From Desulfobacteraceae bacterium (GTDB lineage Bacteria; Desulfobacterota; Desulfobacteria; Desulfobacterales; Desulfosalsimonadaceae), in NCBI GenBank assembly GCA_014237465.1, contig JABZFM010000027.1:1-53256 (forward strand): DNA of 53,256 bases, read 5' to 3'. The position numbers and the translations under genes are program-made. Shown in pieces: positions 11,535-44,357 of the stretch. Below the pieces are notes generated by a model. It was not told where the DNA came from. It was given only the letters and a program-made list of their open reading frames with translations, and made no database searches. The stretch's first letter is position 1. The number at the start of each line of letters is the position of its first letter.

Positions 11535-11599
11535 TGGTTGTAACTTAACAATAAGTCCGGGCAATAACCTCTGGATTCCCGCCTTCGCGGGAATGACGA

Positions 11600-11636
11600 T
11601 TTTCCTTGTTCCCACGGACCGTGGGAACAAGGAAAA
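11600..11636 (+). terminator. Strong hairpin after the LamG gene
   Basis: TTTTCCTTGTTCCCACGG pairs perfectly with CCGTGGGAACAAGGAAAA around one base, and T-residues follow. It may end the LamG transcript. The GTTCCCACG/CGTGGGAAC core also occurs, degenerate, near 352-375, so it may be a mobile palindrome used as a terminator. Confidence 0.6.
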
Positions 11637-11641
11637 TTTTT

Positions 11642-11740
11642 CAAAATAAACCGCAGTATATTGAACAGGGAATATCAAATTTCGATGTATTTTTTTTTAC
11701 TTCAGCGGTTCGAAACTCCTTGTTCTATATCCGACATTCA
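11642..11740 (+). repeat. 98-bp dispersed repeat, decayed copy
   Basis: Reads CAAAATAAACCGCAG through TTTCGATGTAT to CCGACATTCA; it matches the reverse complement of 26759-26856 at roughly four bases in five. Confidence 0.75.
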
Positions 11741-11993
11741 CCATTAAAATGACCCGTGCCCTTAAATTAACGGTATTGGCTTGAGAGTAAATCCATCAAG
11801 CTTAGAAAAAACACTGTGCTTACCCAAACATTGATTATTGTTCACTCCCCGTCGGGCAGAGCACTCTACCTGCCTTGTTGATTCAAGGATATATCCAATT
11901 AATTTAAAATACCCTTGCCTTTTATATAATATTTTGAGATTATAATCGAAAAATGTTATGATATTTTTAAATTATAATCATGAAAGTAAAAAA

Positions 11994-13121
11994 ATGATCC
12001 CCCGACTTCTATACGAACGAATAAATAAAAAACTGTTTAAAGGCAAGGCGGTGATTATCACCGGCCCCCGGCAATCCGGCAAAACAACGCTTATTCAACA
12101 TCTGGCAAAGAATCACCAAAAAACAGCTTTAATGCTCAACTGTGACGAGCCGGATATTCGTCAAATTCTCAGCGATCAGACATCTTCACAGCTCAAAAGA
12201 CTGATAGGCGGTGTGGATCTGGTCCTGATTGATGAAGCCCAGCGCGTCCGAAACATCGGCGTTACCTTAAAGCTCATCACGGATCAAATCAAGGACGTGC
12301 AACTCATCGTAACCGGGTCTTCTTCCCTTGAACTTTCCAATTCCATCAATGAGCCCTTGACCGGTCGAAAATTCGAGTTTCTGCTGCTACCCATATCCAC
12401 CCGAGAAATGACAGCGTACACTTCGGCACTGGAAGAAAGGCGTCTACTGGAAAACCGTCTGACTTTTGGCATGTATCCGGATATCATTACCCAGGCAGGC
12501 GATGGACAGGATATTCTTCATAACCTGGCAGACAGTTATTTATACAAGGACATTTTTACCTTTCAGGATATCCGTAAACCGGAATTGATCGAAAAACTCC
12601 TCCAGGCACTTGCACTGCAGCTTTGCTCGGAAGTCTCGTTTCACGAACTGGCCGGGACGCTGGGTGTGAATTCGGCAACCGTCCAGCGATATATCGAACT
12701 CCTGGAAAAAACATTTGTCATTTTCCGTCTCACGGCATTTACCCGTAACCTGCGAAACGAACTCAAAAAAAGCCGAAAAATTTATTTTTATGACAACGGC
12801 ATTCGAAATGCCCTGATTAAAAATTTCAATCCAGTTTCCCTGAGACCGGATGCCGGTACGCTGTGGGAAAATTTTATGATCAGCGAACGAAAAAAACATC
12901 TCATTTACAATGGCATCAATGCAAATACCCGCTTCTGGAGGACACGGCAGCAACAGGAGATTGATTACATAGAGGAAAAAAATGGGAAAATACTAGCGGT
13001 GGAATTTAAATGGAACCCGAAATCAACCGCCCGGTTTTCCAAAACATTTTTAAACGCATATCCAGGCAGTGAAACGTGCGTTATAACACCCGAAAATTAT
13101 ATTGAATTTTTATCGGAATAA
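11994..13121 (+). CDS. DUF4143-type AAA ATPase
   Basis: 375 residues from ATG 11994 (MIPRLL); an ATG at 11958 in frame would add twelve residues but gives an atypical start. Walker A is GPRQSGKTT, Walker B is LVLIDEAQ, and VTGSSSLEL is the sensor segment. The C-terminal half has a winged-helix-like stretch (LAGTLGVNSATVQRYIELL) and the nuclease-like DUF4143 end (RTRQQQEIDYIEEKNGKILAVEFK). These ATPases are common, mobile and of uncertain function. It is a single gene with AT-rich flanks. Confidence 0.88.
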   Translation: MIPRLLYERINKKLFKGKAVIITGPRQSGKTTLIQHLAKNHQKTALMLNCDEPDIRQILSDQTSSQLKRLIGGVDLVLIDEAQRVRNIGVTLKLITDQIKDVQLIVTGSSSLELSNSINEPLTGRKFEFLLLPISTREMTAYTSALEERRLLENRLTFGMYPDIITQAGDGQDILHNLADSYLYKDIFTFQDIRKPELIEKLLQALALQLCSEVSFHELAGTLGVNSATVQRYIELLEKTFVIFRLTAFTRNLRNELKKSRKIYFYDNGIRNALIKNFNPVSLRPDAGTLWENFMISERKKHLIYNGINANTRFWRTRQQQEIDYIEEKNGKILAVEFKWNPKSTARFSKTFLNAYPGSETCVITPENYIEFLSE

Positions 13122-13253
13122 TCCGCACTATGACATATTGCCAAACCAACGACATCTTGTTCTGGCGACATTTTTTGCTGAGACTGACAAACCGGGAGAG
13201 CTTAACCCAACCAATAAATGGGCTTTACGTTCAGTGACTAACTATTTCTTAAC

Positions 13254-13282
13254 TTGACGGTTCTATTAATATTGATAATAAT
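13254..13282 (+). promoter_or_regulatory. Candidate promoter of the C25 protease gene
   Basis: TTGACG, 17 bases, AATAAT; five of six matches at each box, about 65 bases before the first ATG. Confidence 0.5.
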
Positions 13283-13345
13283 ATTGAGCATCTTCAATGA
13301 GAAAATTTTTAGAAAATCGGAGCACCTCTTATACGCTAACCCTTA

Positions 13346-15874
13346 ATGGAGATATATATTTCAGTGCTTAAAACACGTTTGCGCATATGGATTTCAAGCA
13401 TCTGCCTGATCATTGGAACCGGAATGATGCTGGGAACCGGAGCAATACTGGATACCGCAATGGCCTCAACCGATCCCCGCCCCAATCGCGGGAGCCTGAA
13501 AATTGAAGTTTCCACACCGGGGATTTACCGGGTTTCGGGCAGCGACTTTTCCAGTGCGGGCATCAATACAGCCAATATCAACCCCGATACATTAAAGATG
13601 TTTCATCGGGACATGGAAATTCCCGTTTTTGTGTCTTCTGCTGATACGGTTTTAGATGACAGTGACTTTGTTGAGTTTTATGCGGCTGGCATTGACAACC
13701 GGTTTACCGGAACAGATGTCTACTGGCTCTACTGGAACGGGAACACGGGCAAACGAATGTCCTGGAAAAACGGGGCAGTCAATGAAACATCACAGGATCT
13801 CCGGACGTTTACTGAAATCCGGATGATTGAAGAAAATCACCTCCTGTGGACCCAAACCCCGAATGCGCCTGAGGCTGACTACTGGTTCTGGGAAAAATTC
13901 ACCGCACCCCAGTCTGCCACCTATACCTTTGATCTTCCGTCTCCGGTCAACAATGCGGGGCAAGCGACAGTCTCAGTTTATTTTCAGGGGGTCAGCAGCA
14001 CAGACCACCGCACCATCATCACGCTAAACGGGCAAACCATTGGCGAGGATATATGGTCTGACACCAGTCAGACCACACAGGAAATATCGATTACAAATGA
14101 TCTGTTAAAAAGCAGCCGAAATCAGCTGACGATTGAATCCGCCGGCGAATCTATCGGAGCTTGGGGCAGTGTGCTCTATTTAAACAAAATAGAAGTCAAA
14201 TACACCCGGCGTTTAGCTGCGTTAGATGATCAACTGACATTTACGCTGAACCCGGATGATCCGGTTCCGGTAACTGTTACCGGGTTTACAAAAAACACCA
14301 TCCGGGTGTTTGACATCAGTGATCCGGATAACGTCAAAAGAATTTCCGGAATTGATGTTCAGGCAGATACAAACAGCTATACCGCCCGGTTTGAACACCC
14401 GGGCGGAGAAAAAACATATCTGGCCGTAACATCTGATGCTGTAAATCGCGCTGACCTAATAAAATATAAAAAGCCCTATGATTTAAAAAGCTTATCCAAT
14501 CAGGCCGACTACATCCTGATCACCGGAAAAGACCTGATGCCGGGGCTTGAAAAACTCTGTGAACTTCGGCAACGCCAGGGATTTCGCGTCAAAATGGTGG
14601 ACGTCGAAGACATTTATGATGTGTTTTCATTTGGATTTTTCGATCCGTCGGCGGTTCATGATTTTTTAAAATACGCTTACGAAAACTGGACGTCGCCTGC
14701 TCCGCAGTATGTTCTGCTTGCCGGGGATTCGAATCTGGATTACCGGGACTATTTTGGAAAAGGAAAGGAAAATATTGTCCCGGTTCAGTTAAGTGCGACT
14801 TCTGAACTGGGGTTGACACCATCTGATAACGGATTTGTCAGTTTCAATGACAACAGTCCGGTACCGAACATGTATATCGGCAGAATATCGGGAAATACCA
14901 GTGATGTCATTTCAAAAATTGCCAATAAAATCATCCGATATGAGACCGCAAAAAACTATGCGCCGGATCAGGTTCTGTTTGTTGCAGATGATGAGGAACG
15001 ACAGTTTGAAGACTTAAATGATGACCTGGCATCTTATCTGACATCTGACTATACTGCCATTAAAATCTATGCCCGGCTGTATGATGCATTAGAAGATGTG
15101 ACAGAAAATATCCTGTCGTTTATCGATCTCGGCATGCTTATTACCAATTTTGTGGGCCATGGCGATGTCATCCGCTGGGGCGCGGAGCCCTATGGCGGCG
15201 GGGACTTTATCATTGAACCGGGTGATGTTGACGATCTGACAAATCCGGGCAACCTGACCTTTATCATCGCTCTGGACTGCTTAAACGGTTATTTTTCTCA
15301 ATCTTTTGACTACAGTTTGGCTGAAGAATGGGTGATGACACCGGAAACCGGTGCCATTGCCTGTTTTGCGCCCAGCGGGCTGTCCCATCAGTGGGAGCAT
15401 GAATTTTTAAGCCGGTTTATTTTTGAAAAAATCTTTTTTGAAAATGAAAACCGGCTGGGCGTCATTACGACCCAGTCAAAAATCGATGCCTATTATTCCG
15501 GTGCATCAGACAAGGTTTTAACCTCTTTGAATCTGATCGGCGACCCGGCAACAACGCTGGCCATTCACCGGAATCCGGCCGATATGGTCACGGTTTATGA
15601 GATTGCCGCATCTGTTGGAACCGGCGGAACCATTGCGCCGGCCGGCGACATTCCCGCGTTTGAAAATTCAAATGAGACCTTTACCATTACACCAAATTCA
15701 GGATATCACATTTTAGACGTAACCGTCGACGGTGCATCGCAGGGGACGGTTGGCCAGTATACATTCAGCAATATATCTTCTAACCACATCATTTCCGTTG
15801 AATTTGAACATGAAAACAATACCGGTGGCGGCGGGGGCGGCGGCGGCTGTTTTGTTTCTTCTCTGAACGACTAA
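13346..15874 (+). CDS. Exported gingipain-like C25 cysteine protease
   Basis: 842 residues from the ATG; a GTG at 13364 behind GGAGA is an alternative start. An N-terminal signal anchor (about 10-38) is followed by a beta-rich region and the caspase-like peptidase C25 domain at about 385-745. The catalytic His605 (NFVGHGD) and Cys645 (ALDCLNGYF) are both present, so the enzyme should be active. Then comes an InlB-type repeat (GGTIAPAGD ... VTVDGASQG ... ISVEFEHE), a run of glycines, and the end CFVSSLND. In Bacteroidota such proteases leave by type IX secretion; here the C-terminus is different, a Gly-Gly-Cys-Phe tail shared with the LamG protein at 8187. Confidence 0.88.
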   Translation: MEIYISVLKTRLRIWISSICLIIGTGMMLGTGAILDTAMASTDPRPNRGSLKIEVSTPGIYRVSGSDFSSAGINTANINPDTLKMFHRDMEIPVFVSSADTVLDDSDFVEFYAAGIDNRFTGTDVYWLYWNGNTGKRMSWKNGAVNETSQDLRTFTEIRMIEENHLLWTQTPNAPEADYWFWEKFTAPQSATYTFDLPSPVNNAGQATVSVYFQGVSSTDHRTIITLNGQTIGEDIWSDTSQTTQEISITNDLLKSSRNQLTIESAGESIGAWGSVLYLNKIEVKYTRRLAALDDQLTFTLNPDDPVPVTVTGFTKNTIRVFDISDPDNVKRISGIDVQADTNSYTARFEHPGGEKTYLAVTSDAVNRADLIKYKKPYDLKSLSNQADYILITGKDLMPGLEKLCELRQRQGFRVKMVDVEDIYDVFSFGFFDPSAVHDFLKYAYENWTSPAPQYVLLAGDSNLDYRDYFGKGKENIVPVQLSATSELGLTPSDNGFVSFNDNSPVPNMYIGRISGNTSDVISKIANKIIRYETAKNYAPDQVLFVADDEERQFEDLNDDLASYLTSDYTAIKIYARLYDALEDVTENILSFIDLGMLITNFVGHGDVIRWGAEPYGGGDFIIEPGDVDDLTNPGNLTFIIALDCLNGYFSQSFDYSLAEEWVMTPETGAIACFAPSGLSHQWEHEFLSRFIFEKIFFENENRLGVITTQSKIDAYYSGASDKVLTSLNLIGDPATTLAIHRNPADMVTVYEIAASVGTGGTIAPAGDIPAFENSNETFTITPNSGYHILDVTVDGASQGTVGQYTFSNISSNHIISVEFEHENNTGGGGGGGGCFVSSLND

Positions 15875-16182
15875 CAAAAATGAACGTATTCCGTTCAGGC
15901 ACTAAATAAAAGCAAGATTGTGATTACGATTACGAATTTTTCAAGGCATAGCCGAACATCTCTGACCTGACCCTGAAGACCGGGTTTTGTAAGTTAAAAT
16001 AAATCATTTTGCATATCCGGTTCGGTTAAGTTGGTTAGAAAAATTGCACATCGCTGAAAGGTAGGGTGCATTCTATGTACCATATTCAGTGAAGTTTAAG
16101 CTTTCCCCCGGTGCGTAAAACGCACCCTACTTGAGCGAAGTGGATAACCAGATAAATCATTTTTAACCGGATTCATATATGA
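15875..16182. other. Intergenic region ahead of hybrid kinase
   Basis: No gene. It holds a small GAACG/CGTTC hairpin near 15884 and repeat copy B. The repeat ends only 30 bases before the kinase ATG, so the promoter must lie inside or beyond it. Confidence 0.6.
16008..16152 (-). repeat. 145-bp dispersed palindromic repeat, copy B
   Basis: Reverse complement of 3093-3237 with about two substitutions. It lies directly upstream of the hybrid kinase gene. Confidence 0.9.
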
Positions 16183-19100
16183 ATGTTTAACCTGAACGGT
16201 TATGAAATCATCCTTGAACGCCCTCCGAAAAACGGCGTAAAAATTTATTCCGCCCGGCATATCCAGTCTGACAGTAAGGTAAAAATCCATTTTGTACCTA
16301 TTAATAAACAATCCAAAGACCTTTTTGAAAAAATTTACCAATATTTCCTGCCCTTAAAAAAATTAATTTCGCATCATATCGCCCGCGTGTATGCGATTGA
16401 AAAAATTTCAGAAGCATCCACCTCTGGAATTGCCTTTACTCTTGGAGAATCCGATGGGAGTTCTTTAAAGGAATATTTATCAAAAAATGGTCCCTTAAAT
16501 TCAGATCAATTTATGAATATCGCTGTTCAGATTGTTACGGCCATCAATGACCTGCATAAAGTCGGATTATTCCACAACGGGCTGACGAGTTCAAACATTG
16601 CGATTGCCCCGGATCAAAATCATATCTTCATTAATGATTTTGCATTTGGTCTGTATTCAGTCCTTTCGACGGATGCGTTAAACCAGGAAAACCACGGCCG
16701 TATCACCATAGCGAATGAACATCTACCGTATATTTCGCCGGAGCAGACCGGCCGGATGAATTGCGAAATCGATTATCGAACCGATTTTTATTCCCTGGGT
16801 ATCATATTCTATGAACTGCTCACCGGAACCCCGCCGTTTACCGGCAGCAACCCCATGGAATTGATACACGCCCATATGGCCAAAAACCCGACAATACCGC
16901 GAAAAACCCGAAAAGAAATCGGCGAACCACTGTCAAACATCATCATGAAGCTGCTGTCAAAATCCCCTGATCACCGATATCAAAGCACCTATGGAATAAA
17001 ATCGGATCTGCTCCATTGCCTGAAACAAAACAGCGTCGAAAAACCCTTAACCCCGTTTCAGGTCGCACGGCATGACATCTCCGAACGATTTCGATTTCCG
17101 GGAAAAATTTACGGCCGTGAAATCGAAGTGGCCATGCTGATTGATGAATTCAACCGGGTGAAGGAAAACAATATCGGCATATCCATGATCGCCGGTTATT
17201 CCGGGATTGGAAAATCACGTGTCGTTGAAGAAATCCAGAAGTATGTCTTCAAAAAAGGGGGATATTTTATTTCCGGTCACTATGAGCTGCTTCAGCAGGA
17301 TATTCCCTACAGCGCTTTGATTCAGGCGTTTCAGGAGATCGTTAAACAGATTCTGACGGAACCGGTCGATCAGATTAACGAATGGCGTTATAAACTGCTT
17401 ACCGCCCTTGGCTCAAATGCTCAGGTCATCATCGATGTTATCCCGGAAATTGAATTTATCATTGGCAAACACCCGCCGCCGCCGGAATTATCCCCTGGAG
17501 ACGCTCAAAACCGGTTTCATATGATTTTTGAAAAATTTCTCCAGGTGCTTGCCTCAAAAGAGCATCCGCTGACACTGTTTATCGATAACATGCAATGGGC
17601 TGATACTGCCGGTTTGAAACTAATAGAGTCTTTCTTTACCGGCACCAGAACACAAAATTTCTATTTCATTGGCGCCTATCGCAACAACGAAATCAGCAAT
17701 AACCATCCCTTGTTCGACTCCCTGAATTTGATTAAAGACAAAGGGCTGCCGGTTCAGACAATTACGTTAAAGCCGATCAGTGAAACCAATGTTTGCCATT
17801 TGCTTTCAGATGCCCTGCACGAAGGCATGAACCAGGTAAAGTTACTGGCACAAATTGTCCACGATAAAACCCGGGGCAACCCGTTTTTTATTAAACAATT
17901 CCTCGAAACTTTAAATAAAGAGGGATTTCTTGCGTATGATTACGAAAACGGCCGATGGCAGTGGCGTATCGAACAGATAACCGCTCAAAGCATCACCGAT
18001 AATGTGGTTGATTTTATGGCCGCCAAGGTATCGAAACTGGGTGATCCTTCACAGCAGTCCCTTCAGCTGGCATCCTGCATCGGCGATTCTTTTTCTCTGG
18101 CACTGCTGTCTATGGCTTCTGCCAAACCGGTCGGTGCGGTTGTAACGGACTTGCGGGAAGCGGTCGCCCTTGGATTGATTATGCCAAAGGGTGATGCCTA
18201 CCGACATATGGATAAATCATTAATTAAAATTCAAGCCCAAAACAGTCTAAAGACGGACAATCCAAAAACGCCAATAAACCCGGCCGATGATGTTATATTC
18301 GAGTTTTTACACGACAAGGTCAGGCTGGCTGTTTACGCCCAAGTGCCCGATGCCCTGAAAAATAAATTCCATCTTCAGATCGGAAAACTGATTTTACAAA
18401 ATACGGATCCAAATGATCTGCCCGGCCGGATTTTCTCAATTGTGCATCACTTTAATCACGGAAAAAATCAGCTGGAAAAAAATGCCGATCTTCAGCAGAT
18501 GGCCCGCCTCAACCTCATTGCCGGAAAAAGGGCAAAAGACGCGGCCGCCTACGGCCAAGCCCTCAACTATTTGAAAACAGGAGAAAAATTTTTAACCGAC
18601 AATGCCTGGATTGAAAACTATAACCTGATTTTCGACATCAAAAAACACCGGATGGAATGTGAATATCTTCTGCATAATTTCGATAACGCGGAGAAACTGT
18701 TTCAAATCCTGCTGGACCGGGCCGATTCCAACGAAGACAAGGCCGCAATGTACAATCAGAAGATGATCATGCTGGCAAGCCTTGCCAAGCATGAAGACGC
18801 ATTAAAAATCGGCGCAACCGGCCTGCGGCTTCTCGGTGTCAGACTCCCGAAAAGAGCAGGGAGAATGGATGTGTTTCACAACCTGCTGGCTTTAAAAATC
18901 AGGTTGCATCATAAAGAGATTGATTCACTGCTTGGGCTTCCTGAAATAACTGATCCTCGTCTTTTATTGATCCTGAAAATGATGATGAACCTGAGTTTAT
19001 CCGCTTATTTCTGCCAGCCTTACTTAGCCTCTTACCTGGCGCTGGATATCTTCAAAATGACCCTCAAACACGGCAATTCCAGTGTTTCGCCATTTGCTTA

Positions 19101-31986: not shown

Positions 31987-33339
31987 CTAATGGTTCTCTT
32001 CATAAAAAAAATGATCATCCTTAAATGCCGGCTGTAAATCACTCACCCACTTGGCATTTTTATCATATCGGGCAAAAAAGGGTTTTCCCACCCAATCCGG
32101 GTTCCTTCCCTGCAGAAATTGCAGAACAAAAACTTTTTCTCCGTTTATTTCACTGATGCCCAGCACCTGGATTTTTCCCGGGTGCGCCGACATGCTCGGC
32201 CCCCTGACGGTTCGCGCCAGTCCGCTGACTTTCTGATACGATTTCCGGAATATGTTCCAGGCCTCTTCCAGGGTCACCCCAAAATAATGATGCGTACCGG
32301 TATCTCTGACGACAAACATATAATATGGAATACACCCCAATTCCACCTGCGCCTGCCACATTTTCGACCACAATTCCGGCTGATCGTTAATATGCTTTAA
32401 CAGCGGTGACTGGGTTCGAATCTCAGCGCCGATTTCCCGTATTCGCCGAATCGCATTTTTGACAGCTTCCGGTTCCATTTCCCGGGGATGATTAAAATGC
32501 GCCATAATGGATAAATGCTTTCCTGACCGGGTTATTTTATTTAACAGATCAAGCAGTTCTTCCGAATCATCGTCGGTTAAAAATCGGTACGGCCAATAGC
32601 CCAAAGCCTTGGTGCCGATCCGGATCGTCTTCAGATGCCGGATATTTGCCTTTAGTATGGGGTTAATATAAGTTGCAAATAATTTTGTGCTCATCACCAT
32701 GGGATCACCGCCGGTAAATATCAGATCTGTTATTTCCGGATGATCCTGAATATAGCTGACCAGCAGACGGGTCTCGCGCATGGCAAACTTGATATCATTC
32801 ATCCCGACAAACTGCGGCCACCGAAAACAAAACGTGCAGTAGGCATGACAGGTCTGTCCATGACTGGGAAAAAACAAAATGGTTTCTCTGTATTTATGCT
32901 GACTTCCTTTTAATTTTAAACCGTTATGAGACGGGATATTATTCTCCTGCCCGGCCGGATGGGGATTCAGTTCCCACCGAATTTTCATTGCGGCCTGGTC
33001 AATCTCTTCTTTGTCGGCTTTGCGCTTCAACAAATTCGCAATCGCTTCGTATTGATCGGGCTTAAGCATGTCTTTTTGGGGAAAATTGAGAATAAAAATC
33101 GGATCATCCGGTACATTTTCCCAATCGATCAACTCATTTACAACATAACTATTTGTTTTAAAAGGAAAAACTCTTCCAACAACTTCTATTGCTTCTATTT
33201 GTCCCGATGACAACCGGTTTACCTGGGGGATTTGCCGAAAATTTCGAAGCGTAAAAGACTTATAATGGGCAAATGACTTCGGTGTTAGGTAATCTCTTGA
33301 TAATACAGAACTAAGCGGACTTTCAAAAAATGTTTGCAT
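31987..33339 (-). CDS. KamA-family radical SAM enzyme
   Basis: 450 residues. Related to lysine 2,3-aminomutase: the cluster motif is CHAYCTFCFRWPQF (CX3CX2C), followed by LIFTGGDPMVMS and a C-terminal GPSMSAHPGK segment that could hold the PLP lysine. Lysine 2,3-aminomutase acts with AblB in making acetyl-beta-lysine, but no ablB adjoins and the sequence is divergent, so the substrate is open (lysine, glutamate or other). Upstream lies about 0.9 kb of AT-rich non-coding DNA. Confidence 0.85.
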   Translation of the reverse strand: MQTFFESPLSSVLSRDYLTPKSFAHYKSFTLRNFRQIPQVNRLSSGQIEAIEVVGRVFPFKTNSYVVNELIDWENVPDDPIFILNFPQKDMLKPDQYEAIANLLKRKADKEEIDQAAMKIRWELNPHPAGQENNIPSHNGLKLKGSQHKYRETILFFPSHGQTCHAYCTFCFRWPQFVGMNDIKFAMRETRLLVSYIQDHPEITDLIFTGGDPMVMSTKLFATYINPILKANIRHLKTIRIGTKALGYWPYRFLTDDDSEELLDLLNKITRSGKHLSIMAHFNHPREMEPEAVKNAIRRIREIGAEIRTQSPLLKHINDQPELWSKMWQAQVELGCIPYYMFVVRDTGTHHYFGVTLEEAWNIFRKSYQKVSGLARTVRGPSMSAHPGKIQVLGISEINGEKVFVLQFLQGRNPDWVGKPFFARYDKNAKWVSDLQPAFKDDHFFYEENH

Positions 33340-35698: not shown

Positions 35699-37561
35699 TC
35701 AAATCCCCAATCGTTCGAGGGTTTCTTCTCTGGGGCATCCTTTTTCATCCCATCCCATTACCTTATAATAGTATACTCTGGCATGATCAAAATCAGCTTT
35801 GCTTATTTTGGCTCCCTTTGACGGGCCTTCAGAAATTGCTTCCCCCATAAATGGCAAAAATTCAGCATCTTTGCCTCCGAACCGCAGGTAAAGCTTGCGC
35901 TGCAGCTGAATGGCCCTTTCACCGATTCCCATCAAATCCTCAAAGCTAAGCTGAAACCCGGTGGCTGCATTAATCATGTCAATAATTTCATCAAAAGAAT
36001 AAATATTGCCGGGACCGAAGATAAACATACACAGGCTCAATGAATCAATGGCCGCATAGTAAGTTTGCGTTGCTTTTACGACATCTATTTTAGCCTCATC
36101 AAGGGCATCCGGCGCCGATGTCACCTCAAGATTAAACGCTTTTAAACTTCCGGGATGAGACGCAATCCAGTCATGCTCCTGCTTCATATGATCATTCGGG
36201 TTGGGACCATGGAGATAGGCAAATCCGATGCCCGGTTTTTTTCTCGGCATATGGGCCGGCATACCGACCCCATTCACAAACCGGGAATATGAGGCAGTTT
36301 GCGGGCCAAGTTTTTTCACCGCCTTAGCGATACCATCTGCCAGAAGGTTTCCCAGATCATTTTTACGAAACGCGATGTTCTCAATAAGCTCAATTACTTT
36401 TTGACCGTCTCCGAAACTGATGGAATATCCTGTTTTTTCTTTATCCAATGCACCGCTTTCAAAGCAGTTCATCAACCAGGCAATCATATTTCCGGTTGAA
36501 ATGGTATCCAGGCCCAGGCGGTTACAGAGCTCACATGCCTCAAGACATGTTTCAAGATCGCCTTCAAGACCGATGTTGGCCCCGAGTATGGCGATACTTT
36601 CATATTCCGCCAGACTGCTGTGACCGGGGTTTATCTTTGAGCTTTTTTTACACGCAACAAAACAGTTTTTACAGGGGGTAATGCGTCCAACGATTTCCGC
36701 TTTTGCTGTTTCATGATGATAATGCTTTAAATCCACTGTGTCTTCCGGACACCCGAAATTAAAGTTACGGGTGGGCAGATTACCGGTTTTCCGGTTCATA
36801 TCAAGCAGCCCATAGGTTCCGAGATGCCTTAAAACCCCGAGAAAAGAACGGGGATTCTTTTTTATGGATTCGGAAAACCCGATCCCGCCTTTGCGATTGA
36901 CGAATTTGACTGTCCCGGAATCCTTAAACATGATTTCCTGGTCTCCGCGAACCACCACCGCCTTGACCAGTTTTGCCCCCAGGACCGCCCCAAGCCCTCC
37001 CCGGCCCGCATAATGTTCCGGTTCAAACATGATATTGGCATACCGGACGCAATTCTCACCAGCCGGTCCGATGGACGCGATACAGTAATCATCTCCCATG
37101 TCTGCCAGCATCTGATTCCGGGCATCCACCCGATCCATTCCCCAAAGGTCACCGGCTTCAACAAATCCCACCCGGTCATTTTTAATGTCCACCACAACCG
37201 GAATATCGGATTTTCCGGTGATTACCAGCGCATCAAAACCCGCGCGTTTGATCGCCGGCCCAAATTCACCGCCGGCCTGGGACAGATAAATTCCTGTGGA
37301 CTCGGGAGCCATTGACAGAATATTCACCCGGGTGGCGCCGCAGACGTGTCCGCCGGCCATGGGTCCGGTGGCGAAAATGATGGGATTTTCCGACCCCAGC
37401 GAATCCACTGTTTCTAACCCGTCAATCATTTCTTCATAAAGGGCGGCCCCCAGCAGGGCGCCGCCCATATATTTCCGGTAAAACTGAGCGTCTTTTTCAA
37501 GAATTTTGAAATTTTTTCGATGCAGATCAACAACCAGTATTTTTCCCTTAAACCCGTACAT
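35699..37561 (-). CDS. Tungsten aldehyde:ferredoxin oxidoreductase (AOR family)
   Basis: 620 residues, full AOR length. AOR oxidises aldehydes to acids with ferredoxin, using a tungsten-bis-pterin cofactor and a 4Fe-4S cluster. Visible are the N-terminal domain (GALLGAALYEE, GPMAGGHVCGATRVN), the pterin-binding HYAGRGGLGAVLGAK, and TPCKNCFVACKKS for the cluster. It is the last gene of a tight set: two bases after the amidotransferase, whose start overlaps the Fe-alcohol dehydrogenase stop. This suggests its substrate is the aldehyde formed by that dehydrogenase, perhaps a gamma-glutamyl aminoaldehyde. Confidence 0.93.
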   Translation of the reverse strand: MYGFKGKILVVDLHRKNFKILEKDAQFYRKYMGGALLGAALYEEMIDGLETVDSLGSENPIIFATGPMAGGHVCGATRVNILSMAPESTGIYLSQAGGEFGPAIKRAGFDALVITGKSDIPVVVDIKNDRVGFVEAGDLWGMDRVDARNQMLADMGDDYCIASIGPAGENCVRYANIMFEPEHYAGRGGLGAVLGAKLVKAVVVRGDQEIMFKDSGTVKFVNRKGGIGFSESIKKNPRSFLGVLRHLGTYGLLDMNRKTGNLPTRNFNFGCPEDTVDLKHYHHETAKAEIVGRITPCKNCFVACKKSSKINPGHSSLAEYESIAILGANIGLEGDLETCLEACELCNRLGLDTISTGNMIAWLMNCFESGALDKEKTGYSISFGDGQKVIELIENIAFRKNDLGNLLADGIAKAVKKLGPQTASYSRFVNGVGMPAHMPRKKPGIGFAYLHGPNPNDHMKQEHDWIASHPGSLKAFNLEVTSAPDALDEAKIDVVKATQTYYAAIDSLSLCMFIFGPGNIYSFDEIIDMINAATGFQLSFEDLMGIGERAIQLQRKLYLRFGGKDAEFLPFMGEAISEGPSKGAKISKADFDHARVYYYKVMGWDEKGCPREETLERLGI

Positions 37562-37563
37562 TA

Positions 37564-38268
37564 TTATATCTCCTGAATAAATTGAATTATCCAGCGTGTG
37601 ACAACAACTTCGTCAGTTTTTTCATTCAATGTCGGGATTGCCTCATCAATGGCCTTTTGCCCGATACGATCCCGCCGGACCCTCATGATATCTTTCTCAA
37701 AAGCAGGCGTAAATTCCGGATGGGCCTGGATACCCAGAAAATTTTTCCCCACCGTATATATGGAACAGGGGCAATGCGAATTTCCGCCCAGCACTTCACC
37801 ATTTTCAGGGATCTCAGCGACCTGGTCCGCATGGCTGACAATCATCCGATAGCTGTCCAGTTCCGGCTGCATCCAGGGCATTTTTTTATGTATCTTCACC
37901 TCTTTAATGCCAATCCCCCAGCCTTGATCTGATTTTTCACATTTTCCCCCTAAGGCCTCGGCAATCATCTGGTGACCAAAACAGATACCGACAAATTTCC
38001 TGCCGTGATCATAGAGCTCACGGACATACTCTTTGAACCGGATAATCCATGGATCCTTATCATATACCGAATACCGCGCCCCGCTGCTGATAAACCCGTC
38101 ATAATGATTTACCGGATCCGGATATTCCCCTCTGGTGACATTAAACACTTCCAAAGACACTTCCGGCGCTACCCGGTCAAACAGGTTTTTAAACAGATCC
38201 GGGATATCACCATGCGCCGGCTGAAGCTCTTTTACCACATGATCACATTGGAGCAGTGCAATCTTCAC
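37564..38268 (-). CDS. Class I glutamine amidotransferase-like hydrolase
   Basis: 234 residues, a stand-alone GMP-synthase-type amidotransferase domain. The nucleophile is the cysteine in VGICFGHQM; the His-Glu pair is in GIQAHPEF. No synthetase partner is encoded next to it, which fits a hydrolase. In gamma-glutamyl amine pathways such a protein (PuuD role) splits the gamma-glutamyl acid to glutamate and free amino acid. It overlaps the upstream alcohol dehydrogenase gene by four bases and is followed two bases later by the aldehyde oxidoreductase. Confidence 0.9.
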   Translation of the reverse strand: MKIALLQCDHVVKELQPAHGDIPDLFKNLFDRVAPEVSLEVFNVTRGEYPDPVNHYDGFISSGARYSVYDKDPWIIRFKEYVRELYDHGRKFVGICFGHQMIAEALGGKCEKSDQGWGIGIKEVKIHKKMPWMQPELDSYRMIVSHADQVAEIPENGEVLGGNSHCPCSIYTVGKNFLGIQAHPEFTPAFEKDIMRVRRDRIGQKAIDEAIPTLNEKTDEVVVTRWIIQFIQEI

Positions 38269-39416
38269 AACGCCGCCTTATAAACGGATAACAGGTCCGC
38301 AAGTTCCACCGGGATCATATTGGCCTGGTGACAGGGGTCCTCCAATGCTTCTTGGGCCAACGATTCAAGGTCTTTTCCCAAAACACTATGATTTAAAAGC
38401 CCCGGCGCAATGCCCAGATTCTCTATAAACTGCCGACACATTTCCGCCAGGCCGCCGGATGGATACCCACGGTCTGAGAACAATGCCTGCACTCTTTTGA
38501 CCCGATTCCGCTGGTCCGTATCCAGGTTTGCATTTTCAATAAATGAAATCGCAGCCGGCATGAGCAGGGCGTTTGCCAAGCCATGATGCATGTTACAACG
38601 GCTGGACAGGGGATGTGCCAGGGAATGGATCATGCCGAGCCCTTTCTGAAATGCCGCAGCTCCCATGGTCGCGGCAATGAGCATGCGTTCCCGCGCATCC
38701 AGATTCCGACCGTCTTCCACTGCTCTGGGCAGCCAGTCAAGAACCAGTTCAAGTCCCTGCAAGGCAATGCCGTCGGCAATCGGGTGAAAACCGGGAGCAA
38801 AATAGGCCTCCAGGCAATGGACAAACGCATCAACGCCGGTAGCGGCCGTAATATGCGGCGGCAAACCAACGGTCAGTTCAGGTTCCAGAACCGCCATATC
38901 CGGCAATAAGTCGGGATGAAAATAAATCGCTTTTTTACCGGTTGTGCTTGAAATAATTACGGCGGATCGTCCCACCTCGCTTCCGGTGCCCGCGGTTGTC
39001 GGGATGGCATATAATGGCGGCATGGGTTCCTTAATCAGCCGGTCCCCGCCTATGGCATCATCATACTGTGCCAGGGGCGGTTCGTTCGCTGCCATTATTT
39101 TAATGGCCTTTGCCGCATCCATGGGACTGCCCCCGCCAAGGGCGATAATACTGTCGCATCGGGTGGCTTTAAAAGCCGCCGTTCCTTTTGTCACATCTTC
39201 TTCAATGGGGTTCGGGTGGGTTTCCGCAAATACGGAAAACGCAACCTGATGTGCATCAAGCAGTGACGTGAGTTTGCCCAGCACCCCGCAGGCCTTTAAT
39301 ATTGCATCCGTAACCACGAAAACCCGCTGGTAATTTTTTACCGTCAGACGATGAACAAACTCCGCAAGCGCCCCCTGCCCGCTCAATATAATGGTCGGGA
39401 AATTATACTGGTTCAT
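38265..39416 (-). CDS. Iron-containing alcohol dehydrogenase
   Basis: 383 residues, group III alcohol dehydrogenase. NAD is bound at GGGSPMDAAKAI; TTAGTGSEVGR follows, and the metal site lies in GMIHSLAHPLSSRCNMHHGL. Members oxidise diverse alcohols. The set ligase - alcohol dehydrogenase - amidotransferase - aldehyde oxidoreductase suggests that it oxidises the hydroxyl of a gamma-glutamylated amino-alcohol. The gene starts 147 bases after the ligase, across a long inverted repeat. Confidence 0.93.
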   Translation of the reverse strand: MNQYNFPTIILSGQGALAEFVHRLTVKNYQRVFVVTDAILKACGVLGKLTSLLDAHQVAFSVFAETHPNPIEEDVTKGTAAFKATRCDSIIALGGGSPMDAAKAIKIMAANEPPLAQYDDAIGGDRLIKEPMPPLYAIPTTAGTGSEVGRSAVIISSTTGKKAIYFHPDLLPDMAVLEPELTVGLPPHITAATGVDAFVHCLEAYFAPGFHPIADGIALQGLELVLDWLPRAVEDGRNLDARERMLIAATMGAAAFQKGLGMIHSLAHPLSSRCNMHHGLANALLMPAAISFIENANLDTDQRNRVKRVQALFSDRGYPSGGLAEMCRQFIENLGIAPGLLNHSVLGKDLESLAQEALEDPCHQANMIPVELADLLSVYKAAL

Positions 39417-39456
39417 TTTTCATTCTCTCAAACAGCAATCGCTGTTTAATATAATA

Positions 39457-39567
39457 ATAATTTCTGAACTAATGCTTCAATTTATTTAAATCATTAACAT
39501 AATGCTGAATACATGAAAATTGTATTTTTGTATGTTTCTGCAATTGAAGCATTAGTTCAGAAATTAT
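39457..39567. repeat. 26-bp perfect inverted repeat around ligase stop
   Basis: Left arm 39457-39482 (ATAATTTCTGAACTAATGCT and six more) and right arm 39542-39567 are exact complements, 59 bases apart. The right arm contains the TAA stop of the glutamine synthetase-like gene. A transcript on the minus strand would fold here between the ligase and alcohol dehydrogenase parts, perhaps tuning their relative expression. Confidence 0.9.
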
Positions 39568-40937
39568 ATGATTTCGAAGTACCTGTTAAGCTGCCAGTTC
39601 GTCACAAACTTTTCATATTCCCGGACTTCCCACTCCCGGGAACTGACAAAGTGATCCACGAATTCATCGCCAAACAGGTCTCTTGCTTCTTTGGACTGAT
39701 TGAAAAGCGCGGTGGCATCCCTCAGGTTTGTAGGAAACTGCAGTTCCTCCGGCAAAGATTCCTGGATTTCATAAGCATTTCCGGCAATCGGATCACCCAG
39801 GGTTAGTTTTTCCTCGATTCCCTTGAGCCCGGCCCCGATGACTGCGGCTGCGGTCAGGTAGGGATTACCGTCCGCCGCACCGACACGGAATTCCATCCTC
39901 TGGGAATTAATGCCCCCCAAAATGGCCCGCAAAGCCGTGGTCCGGTTATCAATGCCCCATGTTGCCGATGTGGGCGCCCAGGCGCCTTTGGTCAATCGGG
40001 TGTAGCTGTTAATCGTCGGAGCGGACATCACCAAAAACGATTTTAAATATTTCACAACGCCCGCGATATAATGACGCATGAGTTCACTCATACAATCCGG
40101 CTGATCCGCATCATGAAAAACAGACGCTCCTGTTTTCAGGTCATACAGGGACAGGTGCATATGACCGCTCTGTCCGGGATAATCCATAGACCATTTGGCC
40201 ATAAAGGTTGCGATCATGTCTCTTTTTTGAAAAAAAGCTTTTGAAATGGTCTTGAACAGGTTGGCTTTATCTGCCGGAATAATCCCGGTGTCATAATGGA
40301 GTGCCGCTTCCCAGACCCCCGGCCCGGTCTCACAATGAAGGCCTTCGATTTCAATATCCAGTTTTCTGAAATATTCAATATACTCATTGAACAACTCGGA
40401 CAGCCATCCACTCCTTAAAATTGAATACCCGAACATCCCCGGGGACAGGGGCGTCAGGTCCTGATAGTTTTTTTCCCGGACACTATGGGGGGTTTCCTTA
40501 AAAACAAAAAACTCATATTCAAATGAATACCTCACCCCAAATCCCATATCCTCGGCCCGCTTTAACACCCGCTGCAGCAGTGACCGGGGACAAATGGGAT
40601 GCAGTTCATCGTTTTGATGCACAAACTCCCCCAGAAAAAACGGGACATCCGCTTCTTCAGGCATTCGTCTTTCCGTGGACAGATCAATTTTAAACAATGC
40701 ATCCGGAAACGCAGTATGCCACCCGGTAAACGTCGCATTGTCATAAAGCTGATCCTCACAGTCCCACCCCAGCACACAATCACAAAACCTGCCGGTGGTC
40801 CTGGCCATGGATTTGAATTTTTTCAGGGAAAAATATTTTCCCCTTAAAACCCCGTCAATGTCTGTTAAGGCAATCTTGACACGATTGACACCCTCTGCTT
40901 CAAGATCTTTCAGCTTTTGTTCGATCATGTGCGGCAT
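39564..40937 (-). CDS. Glutamine synthetase-like gamma-glutamyl-amine ligase
   Basis: 457 residues in the GlnA family, near PuuA/GlnA4-type ligases rather than true glutamine synthetase. Metal and substrate motifs are kept: DGVLRGKY, SFEYEFFVF, CETGPGVWEAAL, GHMHLSLYD, NSYTRLTKGAWAP and RMEFRVGAADGNPYL. ATP-dependent joining of glutamate to an amine is the likely reaction. It starts 15 bases after aspS and precedes the Fe-alcohol dehydrogenase, amidotransferase and AOR genes. Streptomyces GlnA4 acts on ethanolamine in a similar setting; the substrate here is an inference. Confidence 0.88.
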   Translation of the reverse strand: MPHMIEQKLKDLEAEGVNRVKIALTDIDGVLRGKYFSLKKFKSMARTTGRFCDCVLGWDCEDQLYDNATFTGWHTAFPDALFKIDLSTERRMPEEADVPFFLGEFVHQNDELHPICPRSLLQRVLKRAEDMGFGVRYSFEYEFFVFKETPHSVREKNYQDLTPLSPGMFGYSILRSGWLSELFNEYIEYFRKLDIEIEGLHCETGPGVWEAALHYDTGIIPADKANLFKTISKAFFQKRDMIATFMAKWSMDYPGQSGHMHLSLYDLKTGASVFHDADQPDCMSELMRHYIAGVVKYLKSFLVMSAPTINSYTRLTKGAWAPTSATWGIDNRTTALRAILGGINSQRMEFRVGAADGNPYLTAAAVIGAGLKGIEEKLTLGDPIAGNAYEIQESLPEELQFPTNLRDATALFNQSKEARDLFGDEFVDHFVSSREWEVREYEKFVTNWQLNRYFEII

Positions 40938-40952
40938 GTAAATATCGTCTCC

Positions 40953-42734
40953 TTATTCCAGATCAACTTTTATCGCAAGCTCCATCAACTGCTCAGTTGC
41001 TGCTGAAGACGGTGCGTCGGTCAGCAGACAGGCACCTTTCTGTGTTTTCGGAAACGGTATGACTTCCCGGATAGAATCGCCGCCGCAAAGGATCATCATC
41101 AGGCGATCCAGGCCAAAGGCCAACCCGCCATGTGGCGGTGCACCGGAATCTAAAGCGGAAATCAAGAATCCGAATTTTCCCTCATATTCCTCTTTTCCCA
41201 TACCCAGTGCTTTAAGTACCTTGATCTGCAAGTCCTTCTGATGAATACGGATACTGCCGCCGCCGATTTCAGATCCATTCAAGACCATGTCATAGGCCCT
41301 TGAATTCATCGCCAGAGGATCTGTTTCCAAAAGTTCGTAATCGGATTCCTGTGGCGATGTGAACGGGTGATGCAGGGCCTGATAACGTTTTTCCGTTTCA
41401 TCATATTCAAACATCGGAAAATGGGTGACCCAAACAAAATTATATTCATTCGGATCCATCAGACCCAGCTTTGCTCCCAGATAGTTCCTGAGATTACCCA
41501 GGGCGTCATTGGTGATTTTCGGCTGATCGGCCACAAAAAACACCAAATCTCCTGGTTCCATGTTCAAACGATCCGCCATCTGCTGTTTCTCATCATCTGA
41601 AAAAAACTTGGCAATCGGCGACTGCCATTCATTTTCCCGGACCTTGATCCAGGCCAGACCCTTGGCCCGGTACACGCCGACAAAGTCGGTTAAATCATCA
41701 ATCTCTTTTCGGCTGAAATTTTCACATCCTTTGGCATTCAGCGCTTTAACCATACCACCTTTTTTCACCACATTGGCAAACACTTTAAACCCGGAAATGC
41801 CGACAATGTCTGAAATATCCTTTAATTCCAGCCCGAACCGAAGGTCCGGCCGATCCAGTCCGAACCGGTCCATGGCTTCCTTGTAAGTCATTCGCTTAAA
41901 CGGCGTATCCAAATTGATATCAAGGACTTCCTTGAACACCGCCGACACCAGGCCCTCGGCAATATCCATGACATCTTCTTCGCCCACAAAGGACATCTCC
42001 ATATCCACCTGGGTAAATTCCGGCTGACGGTCCGCCCGGAGATCTTCATCCCGGAAACACCGGACAATCTGGTAATAGCGGTCAAAACCGGATATCATCA
42101 AAAGTTGCTTGAAAAGCTGGGGAGACTGGGGAAGCGCGTAAAACATTCCCTGGCTGATCCGGCTGGGCACCAGGTAATCCCTCGCGCCTTCCGGTGTGCT
42201 TTTGGTTAAAATCGGGGTTTCAATATCTAAAAATCCGTTTTTGTTCATATAATTTCGAATCGCTGCCGATGCCTTGTGCCGGGTAATAATATTTTTCTGT
42301 ATTTTGGGCCGCCGCAAATCAATATGACGGTTCTGCAGACGAATACTTTCAGACACATCAATATCATCTTCGATCATGAACGGTGGTGTCTGGGCCCTAT
42401 TCAAAATCTTGAGTTCATCAGCCATAACCTCGATTTCACCGGTCAACAGGTCCGGATTGGTCATTCCTTCCGGTCGTTTTTCCACTTGGCCTTTGACGGC
42501 TAAAACAAACTCGCTCCGGATCTCATGGGCTTTTTCATGAACTGCCCGGTTGTGTTCGGGATTAAACACCACCTGGGTGATGCCGTTACGGTCCCTTAAA
42601 TCAATAAAAATAACACCGCCATGATCCCGACGGCGCTGTACCCATCCCATCAACACCACTTCATTCCCGATATTTTCTGAACCCAGCTCACAGCAATGGT
42701 GAGTTCGTCGCATATCTCCCAATGGTTCTATCAC
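40953..42734 (-). CDS. aspS: Aspartyl-tRNA synthetase
   Basis: 593 residues from a GTG at 42734, chosen because AGGAG lies eight bases upstream and VIEPLGDMRRTHHC matches the usual AspRS start; an ATG at 42797 would add 21 residues not seen in the family. Class II motifs are clear: the OB-fold anticodon domain, FLDIETPILTKSTPEGARD, FRDEDLRADRQPEFTQ and the GLDRLMMILCG end, with the bacterial insertion domain. It follows hisS by 69 bases on the same strand. Confidence 0.96.
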   Translation of the reverse strand: MIEPLGDMRRTHHCCELGSENIGNEVVLMGWVQRRRDHGGVIFIDLRDRNGITQVVFNPEHNRAVHEKAHEIRSEFVLAVKGQVEKRPEGMTNPDLLTGEIEVMADELKILNRAQTPPFMIEDDIDVSESIRLQNRHIDLRRPKIQKNIITRHKASAAIRNYMNKNGFLDIETPILTKSTPEGARDYLVPSRISQGMFYALPQSPQLFKQLLMISGFDRYYQIVRCFRDEDLRADRQPEFTQVDMEMSFVGEEDVMDIAEGLVSAVFKEVLDINLDTPFKRMTYKEAMDRFGLDRPDLRFGLELKDISDIVGISGFKVFANVVKKGGMVKALNAKGCENFSRKEIDDLTDFVGVYRAKGLAWIKVRENEWQSPIAKFFSDDEKQQMADRLNMEPGDLVFFVADQPKITNDALGNLRNYLGAKLGLMDPNEYNFVWVTHFPMFEYDETEKRYQALHHPFTSPQESDYELLETDPLAMNSRAYDMVLNGSEIGGGSIRIHQKDLQIKVLKALGMGKEEYEGKFGFLISALDSGAPPHGGLAFGLDRLMMILCGGDSIREVIPFPKTQKGACLLTDAPSSAATEQLMELAIKVDLE

Positions 42735-42803
42735 TGAACAACTCCTTTCAAGCAACTCAAGGGGCTCACTCAAAAATATGAACTTATTGTTTCGCAAACC
42801 CCG

Positions 42804-44057
42804 CTATGTCAGATGTTTTTTAATATGATTGACCATCCCTTCAATGGGGATGGTTACCTGCTCCTTGGTCTGCATGTTTCTTAAAAGTACCGCACCCTCT
42901 TCAATTTCCTGGGTGCCCACGATCAGGACATTGGCGGCACCGATCCGGTTCGCCCGTTTCATCAACGCCTTTAGACTTTTATCGGAAAAATCAATTTCCG
43001 TCCGGATTCCTTCCTGTCCGAGCGCACAGGACCACTCAAATGTTTTTTCCCGGACTTTCTCACCCAGAGCCGCAATAAAAATATCCGGGGTTAATTCTTT
43101 TTGGGCCAATCCCTGCATCACCAGGGCCACCAGCCGATCCAGACCAATGGCAAAGCCGATGGCCGGCTGCTCCGGGCCGCCGAGCATTTTAACCAGCATG
43201 TCATATCTACCGCCGCCGGCAATGGCATTCTGGGCACCCAGTGCATCCGTCTGAATTTCAAAAGCCGTCCGGGTATAATAATCAAGCCCCCTGACCAGAC
43301 GGGGATTCAGCTCAAATGGAATCCCCTGCGACGCTAAGCCTGACTGAACCGCATTAAAATGCCGAGCGCAATCATCACAAAGATAATCCACCATGGATGG
43401 AGCATCATCGATCACTTCCTGGCAGGATGGGACCTTACAGTCCAGCACCCTTAACGGGTTTTTGTCCTGCCGGCGGACACAGTCACTGCAAAGACTTCCG
43501 GTTTTTGATGCCAGATGTGATGCCAATGCTTCTTTAAATGACGGGCGGCACGCCGGACATCCCAGGGAATTGAGCTGAACGGACAACCCGGTGATTTCCA
43601 GCCGCATAAAAACCGTCCAGAGCATGAAAATCAGCTGGGCGTCAATATACGGCGACTCAATCCCGAAAACCTCGGCATTTATCTGGTAAAACTGGCGATA
43701 CCTTCCTTTTTGAGGTCGTTCCCGCCGGAACATGGGACCGATGGTATATAATTTCTGAATCGGCTCTTTTGCGTAAAGTTTCTGCTGAATGTATGACCGC
43801 ACTACAGAAGCCGTGGCTTCCGGCCGCAGCGTAATCAGCTCCCCTTTGCTGCCCGCAAATGTATACATTTCTTTTTCAACAATATCGGTATGTTCTCCGA
43901 TACTCCGTTGAAATAGTTCCGTTTTTTCAACAATCGGCAGCCGGATTTCCTTGAACCCGAAAGACTGAAAAAGCGCAATGGCCGTGTCTTCAATATGCCT
44001 CCAGGTCTGGGTTTCATCCGGCAGGATATCTTTAAATCCTCTGATTAATTGTATCAT
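42804..44057 (-). CDS. hisS: Histidyl-tRNA synthetase
   Basis: 417 residues from ATG 44057 (MIQLIRGFKDILP, the normal family start; ATG 44075 adds six residues). The class II core has RPEATASVVRSYI and GPMFRRERPQKGRYRQFYQ, and the histidine-specific motifs GLDYYTRTAFE and GGGRYDML are present, with the C-terminal anticodon domain (IEEGAVLLRNM). It opens the minus-strand run hisS - aspS - ligase - dehydrogenase - amidotransferase - AOR and is divergent from panB. Confidence 0.96.
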   Translation of the reverse strand: MIQLIRGFKDILPDETQTWRHIEDTAIALFQSFGFKEIRLPIVEKTELFQRSIGEHTDIVEKEMYTFAGSKGELITLRPEATASVVRSYIQQKLYAKEPIQKLYTIGPMFRRERPQKGRYRQFYQINAEVFGIESPYIDAQLIFMLWTVFMRLEITGLSVQLNSLGCPACRPSFKEALASHLASKTGSLCSDCVRRQDKNPLRVLDCKVPSCQEVIDDAPSMVDYLCDDCARHFNAVQSGLASQGIPFELNPRLVRGLDYYTRTAFEIQTDALGAQNAIAGGGRYDMLVKMLGGPEQPAIGFAIGLDRLVALVMQGLAQKELTPDIFIAALGEKVREKTFEWSCALGQEGIRTEIDFSDKSLKALMKRANRIGAANVLIVGTQEIEEGAVLLRNMQTKEQVTIPIEGMVNHIKKHLT

Positions 44058-44357
44058 ATTAAATCGCTCTTCCATCAGGCGATGCAGTATAATTTTTTAC
44101 GTTTGCATTGCCCGTTAATTTTTTCTATACTATAATAAGTTCAACATGATAGATTGTATGTGTAAATTAAAAGTACAATTTATAATTTATATGTAAAACG
44201 TTTCACTTAGTCAATATTAATGTTCTTTTCAGCAGCATTGATAAAACAGCAAAAAAAGTTTGCTATTACAGATGGTTAAAAGTCAATAAACCCATCTTTT
44301 CAAACTGTTTTTGCCTGGGTTAGCGATTCTGAACTTCAGGTAAAAAGGAGATACCGC

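Follow-up and report, generated by a model that had tools for sequence, protein, structure and literature searches.

Can an anaerobic bacterium operate a gamma-glutamyl amino-alcohol pathway in which a ferredoxin-linked enzyme takes the place of the NAD-type aldehyde dehydrogenase (ALDH)? This question is raised by four adjoining genes from a Desulfobacteraceae bacterium (assembly GCA_014237465.1, contig JABZFM010000027.1, positions 1 to 53,256; this whole stretch of 53,256 nucleotides is referred to as the window). They encode a glutamine synthetase (GS)-like ligase, an Fe-type alcohol dehydrogenase (Fe-ADH), a class I glutamine amidotransferase-like hydrolase (GATase) and a tungsten-type aldehyde:ferredoxin oxidoreductase (AOR). 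The initial annotation had placed four minus-strand genes of these families at 35699-40937, and both families and spacing were borne out by the open reading frames and Pfam matches (Table 1). It had also interpreted the set as a ferredoxin-linked gamma-glutamyl amino-alcohol pathway, a view that is supported by the ligase tree, the residues and the conservation described below. Probably, the four genes specify an anaerobic, ferredoxin-coupled version of the eto-type pathway.

Identity of the ligase

Judged from scores, residues and trees, the ligase is neither a GS nor PuuA nor IpuC. It scores 214 bits against the curated GlnA family of NCBIfam (cut-off 429) and 170 bits against curated gamma-glutamylputrescine synthetase, PuuA (cut-off 650), and thus stays below the cut-offs of GlnA, GS III and GGputSyn. 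In the alignment it is 25% identical to E. coli GlnA, 27.5% to PuuA and 37% to IpuC. Identity rises to 49-54% with five ligases from ALDH-type operons and to 61% with one from a gammaproteobacterium. A scan of named genomes, in which the best 80 of at least 575 ligase loci were kept, gave identities of up to 65%. The metal and ATP residues of GS are retained, as are four of the five glutamate residues, and an Asp aligns at GS D50 in a loop that is itself poorly aligned. At the positions of E327 and Y179 (GS numbering) the ligase carries Trp and Phe. A change at these positions is a reported mark of the amine-using enzymes GlnA4 and PauA7 (excerpts of PMC6529630).

In the trees the ligase lies within one large clade together with ligases of ALDH operons, apart from IpuC. 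Because the wider tree had outgroups on long branches and one mis-trimmed row (L020, with 11% of columns filled), a second tree omitted PuuA, GlnA and G091. This second tree comprises the window ligase, IpuC and 50 locus-derived rows selected from 102 extracted ligases. Absent from it are the truncated ligase of G032, the long-branched one of G091, the near copies of G220 and L029, the frameshifted one of G063 and the partial one of G185. In this tree the label AOR was also given to G164, G262 and G377, whose ligase contigs end before any AOR, and the label ALDH denotes an ALDH match anywhere in the locus.

Membership in the GS family and the conserved metal and ATP residues would also suit an ordinary or assimilatory GS. 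This is very improbable, given a score of less than the GlnA cut-off and a second gene of the same genome (contig C15) that is 54.7% identical to E. coli GlnA and has Glu at the E327 position, versus Trp in the ligase. The grouping with true GSs that the initial annotation had named as the adverse outcome did not occur, as the low identity to GlnA, the Trp at E327 and the tree agree in showing.

We also considered the structure 5dm3, named L-glutamine synthetase, as an eto ligase and rejected it. It gives merely 236 bits to the window ligase and 230 bits to the Vibrio penaeicida ligase, and because of these low scores it looks like another ligase lineage. It may be Csal_0679.

Motifs of the partner enzymes

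The Fe-ADH has the D-x3-H and H...H motifs common to FucO, which we take to be metal-binding. The GATase shows the motif set Cys96-His183-Glu185, and its best solved relative is gamma-glutamyl peptidase 1 (9k7i). The best PDB match of the AOR is 1aor (275 bits), which we take to be the P. furiosus enzyme; the two align end to end, and the conserved cysteines, presumably the Fe-S ligands, are present. The motifs PCKNCFVAC, DSLSLC, EYES and DHM are intact. With AFOR_N and AFOR_C, C-x2-C-x3-C and a distal Cys, the protein has the features of a class I AOR. Like PfAOR and its kin it appears to be a single large subunit, and no small-subunit gene adjoins it among the listed frames of the window. 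With intact active-site motifs throughout, the four enzymes appear functional.

Usual context of the ligase

What kind of operon do relatives of this ligase usually inhabit? Among the best 80 loci of the named-genome scan, several of which are short, an ALDH match was found in 44 (two of them weak, below 35% identity), an Fe-ADH in 42 and a GATase in 47. Ligase, ALDH and ADH occur together in 39 loci, and all four including the GATase in 16. A single locus has an AOR, and it belongs to G220, a member of the window's genus. The order ligase-ALDH-ADH-GATase is seen on plasmid records of Legionella lytica and two Photobacterium, and two strains of V. penaeicida have the layout RpiR-TRAP-ligase-ALDH-ADH-GATase. 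The AOR of the window thus stands where other lineages have an ALDH.

A separate group of loci, L041 and 11 further gammaproteobacterial ones, has a conserved sodium:solute symporter and a GATase alongside a ligase of the window type, without an ADH or ALDH of this set. By gene content, these symporter loci likely represent a different gamma-glutamyl route.

Distribution of the AOR among ligase-bearing genomes

We drew a sample of 389 genomes from the window's class and counted ligase carriers at E 1e-70; L029, which shares identical stretches with G220, is the same genome and was counted once. The ligase is present in 19 genomes. In 14 of these an AOR lies in the gene run of the ligase (G000, G084, G220, G021, G129, G149, G366, G041, G304, G246, G322, G032, G385 and G091), in agreement with the earlier proposal that the AOR replaces the NAD aldehyde dehydrogenase. 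In four (G185, G164, G262, G377) the contig end is reached first, and in G185 and G262 an AOR is found on a separate contig with an ADH or a piece of one. Other genera and families also carry the set, so that the arrangement exceeds chance, and the restriction to a single genome that the initial annotation had allowed for is not what we found. A phylum-wide draw of 395 genomes, which overlaps the first sample, returned the ligase in the window genome only, at a cut of E 1e-90 that is stricter than 1e-70 and hides weaker carriers.

Gene order varies. In families f1 and f12 the arrangement is ligase-ADH-GATase-AOR. The f21 loci have ligase-ADH-AOR, and those of G304 and G246 also retain pieces of a C26 peptidase. 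G032 has ligase, C26 peptidase, ADH and AOR, and G385 has TRAP-ligase-ADH-AOR. In G032 and G377 a C26 (PuuD-type) peptidase adjoins the ligase instead of the class I GATase. In G091 (locus L025, contig C395) the row is an IpuC-like ligase, an AOR and a short-chain dehydrogenase/reductase (SDR), together with a Liv-type ABC transporter and an RpiR regulator; by its gene content, this is possibly a further ferredoxin-linked amine pathway. G043 (L168, C14) has a Pot-type transporter, an AOR and an eto-like Fe-ADH in a row, with GDPD and GATase genes on the other strand. An apparent ligase-ADH fusion in G129 (864-aa frame) spans unread bases of the assembly and was dropped.

The AOR itself is also linked to the ligase. 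Its subfamily (E 1e-190) is found in 12 of the 389 genomes. Eleven of these are ligase carriers, and only one belongs to the 370 ligase-less genomes (hypergeometric p 1e-15, a value that ignores relatedness and serves as a guide only). In ten genomes searched for all AOR relatives, those outside the subfamily are at most 38% identical.

These counts bear on the idea that the AOR just happens to lie near the operon, either as a bystander or as an enzyme that detoxifies aldehydes in general. AOR-family genes are numerous in genomes of this kind (the window genome gave 11 matches), and a role in aldehyde detoxification has been suggested for some characterised class I enzymes (excerpts of PMC13328260). 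We nevertheless consider the idea unlikely, because 14 of 15 readable contexts include an AOR in the gene run, beside at least two ligase lineages, and because its subfamily is so rare in genomes lacking the ligase.

Phylogeny of ligases and AORs

Forcing the 14 AOR-linked ligases into one clade was rejected (p-AU 9e-7), as was joining the f1/f12 and f21 ligases (p 1e-7). A single clade of the AOR-linked ligases of f21 and f11 was not rejected (p 0.27), and therefore the tested rows require two origins but not a third. The AORs form one group: those of f1/f12, of f21 and of G043 cluster together (SH-aLRT 100), and 16 cluster AORs are separate from 20 other AORs on a branch that is not starred in this quick tree (SH-aLRT 87). 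Counted among the 16 are the AOR of G043, a genome with no ligase, and those of G185 and G262, in which AOR and ligase are on different contigs. The AOR tree drew on 64 AOR matches, of which only those with a locus could enter; 44 of 45 loci passed the length cut (the G246 fragment failed), and removal of eight duplicates left 36 rows. In these trees one AOR lineage is paired with at least two distinct ligase lineages. This pairing is the strongest evidence that the AOR performs a step of the pathway.

Proposed pathway and comparison with known systems

Based on this gene content, the ligase would couple glutamate with an amino-alcohol, probably ethanolamine or one close to it, in an ATP-dependent reaction. 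Using NAD(P), the Fe-ADH would then oxidize the alcohol of the resulting gamma-glutamyl-amide to an aldehyde, and the tungsten-type AOR would convert the gamma-glutamyl-aldehyde into gamma-glutamyl-glycine with concomitant reduction of ferredoxin. Finally, the GATase would release glycine and glutamate, the latter to be reused, and glycine could enter the glycine cleavage system. We infer each reaction and its direction, the metal, ferredoxin as the acceptor and ethanolamine as the substrate.

AORs and Fe-ADHs can work in the reducing direction, so that the two enzymes might instead reduce a gamma-glutamyl-amino acid to an amino-alcohol with ferredoxin as donor. This appears distinctly unlikely, since the amidohydrolase and the uptake system in G385 point to catabolism and the dehydrogenase replaced by the AOR is oxidative in the published pathway (excerpts of PMC10132767).

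Among known systems, the closest is the TRAP-linked eto operon of Phaeobacter (MED193_10021-10056) and Chromohalobacter salexigens (Csal_0678 locus), which comprises a ligase, an alcohol dehydrogenase, an ALDH and a gamma-glutamylglycine amidohydrolase (excerpts of PMC10132767). The window operon shares the kind of ligase, an alcohol-oxidizing dehydrogenase in the form of the Fe-ADH and a gamma-glutamyl amidohydrolase in the form of the GATase. Relatives of its ligase occur with ALDH, ADH and GATase, to which V. penaeicida adds RpiR and TRAP genes; the resemblance of these ALDH-type loci to eto is one of layout and of EtoX. Unlike eto, the window has an AOR where eto has the ALDH, shows no TRAP transporter or RpiR gene beside the operon, and contains a ligase of another clade than the EtoX-linked ligases placed in the tree.

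The initial annotation had compared the logic to the Puu and GlnA4 routes. The shared steps are indeed there, but eto is the nearer relative. The Streptomyces GlnA4 route also involves glutamylation of ethanolamine, two predicted oxidations and hydrolysis; compared by description, it differs by the predicted dehydrogenase SCO1611, the ALDH SCO1612 and the EpuRI regulator, with no AOR named (excerpts of PMC6529630). Likewise, E. coli Puu combines glutamylation, aldehyde oxidation and gamma-glutamyl hydrolysis, but employs the oxidase PuuB and the ALDH PuuC versus Fe-ADH and AOR in the window. The IpuC cluster of Paenarthrobacter aurescens TC1 (pTC2) has, by annotation, a GS-like ligase, a dehydrogenase and a GATase; in contrast to the window it includes a short-chain dehydrogenase and a P450, its ligase, IpuC, is 37% identical to that of the window, and no AOR is annotated. 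The class I tungsten oxidoreductases that the classification paper calls characterised act on aldehydes other than the one proposed for the window AOR, and the paper gave no text match for glutamine synthetase, ethanolamine or glutamyl (PMC13328260).

Substrate and points against the proposal

A clue to the substrate comes from an AOR-type operon of another genome. The TRAP binding protein encoded in G385 scores 515 bits against 4uab, and its V. penaeicida counterpart 563 bits; the second-best PDB match of both is below 75 bits. The structure 4uab is Csal_0678, solved with ethanolamine (excerpts of PMC12410723). In Phaeobacter, the eto proteins rise on phosphorylethanolamine, and EtoX binds ethanolamine with a Kd of 7.9 uM (excerpts of PMC10132767). 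Because of the closeness of its binding protein to 4uab, ethanolamine is likely the substrate of the G385 operon. The suggestion of ethanolamine in the initial annotation thereby gains outside support through this sister operon, and none for the window's own lineage, to which we extend it by analogy. EutB was not found in the window genome and is present in one of 11 genomes searched (G304), and the window genome encodes a glycine decarboxylase; for these reasons, the use of glycine fits.

Several observations weigh against the proposed pathway or its substrate. Desulfopila retains the ALDH, and hence an AOR is not needed for anaerobic life. G063 lacks an AOR in the gene run of the ligase, which is also frameshifted; the ligase of G032 is truncated. 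The AOR subfamily is missing (E 1e-190) in eight of the 19 ligase genomes: AORs of a sister branch occur in G032, G385 and G091, the copies of G021 and G246 are split or partial, and none was seen in G164, G377 or G063. A check of the five f21 loci and of G385 revealed no intact hydrolase. G043 has this AOR, but its genome yielded no eto-type ligase (best match E 2.5e-28). As regards uptake, EtoX is absent from the window genome (E 1e-30), and no transporter was seen beside the operon. EtoX was found in two of 20 genomes searched, G385 and G091, and lies beside the ligase in G385. In the set of 103 loci, seven, including V. penaeicida, have EtoX-like genes, and none of these adjoins a ligase of the window's clade. 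The window ligase belongs to a different major clade from the placed EtoX-linked ligases (L089, L093, L130), and 12 gammaproteobacterial relatives in its clade have a sodium:solute symporter beside the ligase.

The separate clade, the lack of EtoX beside its members, the 12 symporters and the pairing of an AOR with a Pot-type transporter in G043 would all be compatible with the same chemistry on another substrate in the window's lineage, such as alaninol, 3-aminopropanol, isopropanolamine or an amine that yields a gamma-glutamylated alcohol. We regard this as possible but somewhat doubtful, as the Y179 position is Phe in the window ligase and in two EtoX-linked ligases (L130, Desulfopila), versus His in IpuC and Asp in PuuA. 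The Trp at E327 does not discriminate, because it is also present in IpuC.

Two further loci concern ethanolamine and glycine. On a short contig of G091 (L183, contig C393) an EtoX homologue (72%) is found with a choline/ethanolamine kinase (PF01633), and two frames between them resemble TRAP membrane genes and are putatively assigned as such; the kinase marks an apparent alternative fate of ethanolamine. In L172 (G000:C10:76000-95900, positions 8653-17072) another AOR and a ferredoxin-like frame lie directly upstream of apparent glycine cleavage genes. Two frames there match GDC-P and the AOR was matched in the search for AOR relatives; the other names were read from frame starts only.

Implications for tungsten oxidoreductases

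The gamma-glutamyl pathway itself is known, and the ferredoxin-linked variant appears to be new. In agreement with the initial annotation, which knew of no described pathway with this set, a search confined to open-licence PMC papers, largely at the level of listings, found no account of an AOR paired with a gamma-glutamyl ligase. In the excerpts seen, the single open-licence PMC paper naming AOR, gamma-glutamyl and glutamine synthetase treats them apart.

A broader reading is plausible, although we stop just short of favouring it: a branch of AORs dedicated to gamma-glutamyl aldehydes could have entered different gamma-glutamylation pathways on several occasions, replacing the NAD-type ALDH and turning amine catabolism into a source of reduced ferredoxin. 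The pathways concerned would be the eto-like one, that of the window's clade, the IpuC-like cluster in G091 and perhaps the Pot-linked one in G043. A defined physiological role has been given for only five of 92 clades of tungsten oxidoreductases (excerpts of PMC13328260), and the present set would provide another lineage with a concrete, testable substrate. It would also be a clean case in which a conserved pathway exchanges one class of redox enzyme for another, and does so with more than a single ligase lineage. Since dsrA is present in the window genome (615 bits), the organism is a probable sulfate reducer. The pathway suggests that sulfate reducers can take low-potential electrons from a breakdown product of membrane lipids without the Eut route.

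Position of the gene set in the window

The ADH and GATase genes overlap by 4 bases, the gap between GATase and AOR is 2 bases, and that between ligase and ADH is 147 bases (Table 1). Upstream on the same strand, 15 bases separate the end of aspS from the ligase start and 6 bases the end of hisS from aspS. Because of this spacing the four genes may be co-transcribed with hisS-aspS in the window genome. A ribosome-binding stretch 5' of the ligase ATG was judged by eye. Among eight window proteins scanned, curated NCBIfam cut-offs were reached by AspS, HisS and a YihG acyltransferase only, and thus by none of the four operon proteins.

Table 1 Features of the gene set and its upstream neighbours in the window
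Feature	Position	Strand	Size	Proposed role or description	Profile match
Ligase	39564-40937	minus	457 aa	proposed gamma-glutamyl-ethanolamide (amino-alcohol) synthetase	Pfam Gln-synt_C 298.6 bits
Fe-ADH	38265-39416	minus	383 aa	proposed gamma-glutamyl-amino-alcohol dehydrogenase	Pfam Fe-ADH 157.2 bits, ADH_Fe_C 138.6 bits
Class I GATase-like hydrolase	37564-38268	minus	234 aa, GTG start	proposed gamma-glutamyl-glycine (gamma-glutamyl amino acid) amidohydrolase	Pfam GATase 51.4 bits
AOR	35699-37561	minus	620 aa	proposed gamma-glutamyl-aldehyde:ferredoxin oxidoreductase replacing NAD-type ALDH	AFOR_N 202.8 bits, AFOR_C 313 bits
Intergenic stretch ligase/ADH	39417-39563	minus		long hairpin, arms of at least 22 bases	
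aspS	40953-42797	minus		upstream neighbour of ligase	NCBIfam aspartate--tRNA ligase 884 bits
hisS	42804-44075	minus		possible first gene of transcript	NCBIfam hisS 482.5 bits

Elsewhere in the window, 31987-33339 encodes a KamA-family radical SAM protein that is below the cut-offs of all six NCBIfam families matched (best 133.6 of 199.2 bits).

The hairpin between ligase and ADH has a minimum free energy of -46.9 kcal/mol (z -7.7). It was considered as a dispersed repeat, an idea we rejected when a whole-genome search returned only the stretch itself and its two arms. At this spot G084, G220 and G304 have other long hairpins, which were folded without shuffles, and in G149, G366, G164 and G021 the ligase-ADH spacers are merely 8 to 42 bases long.

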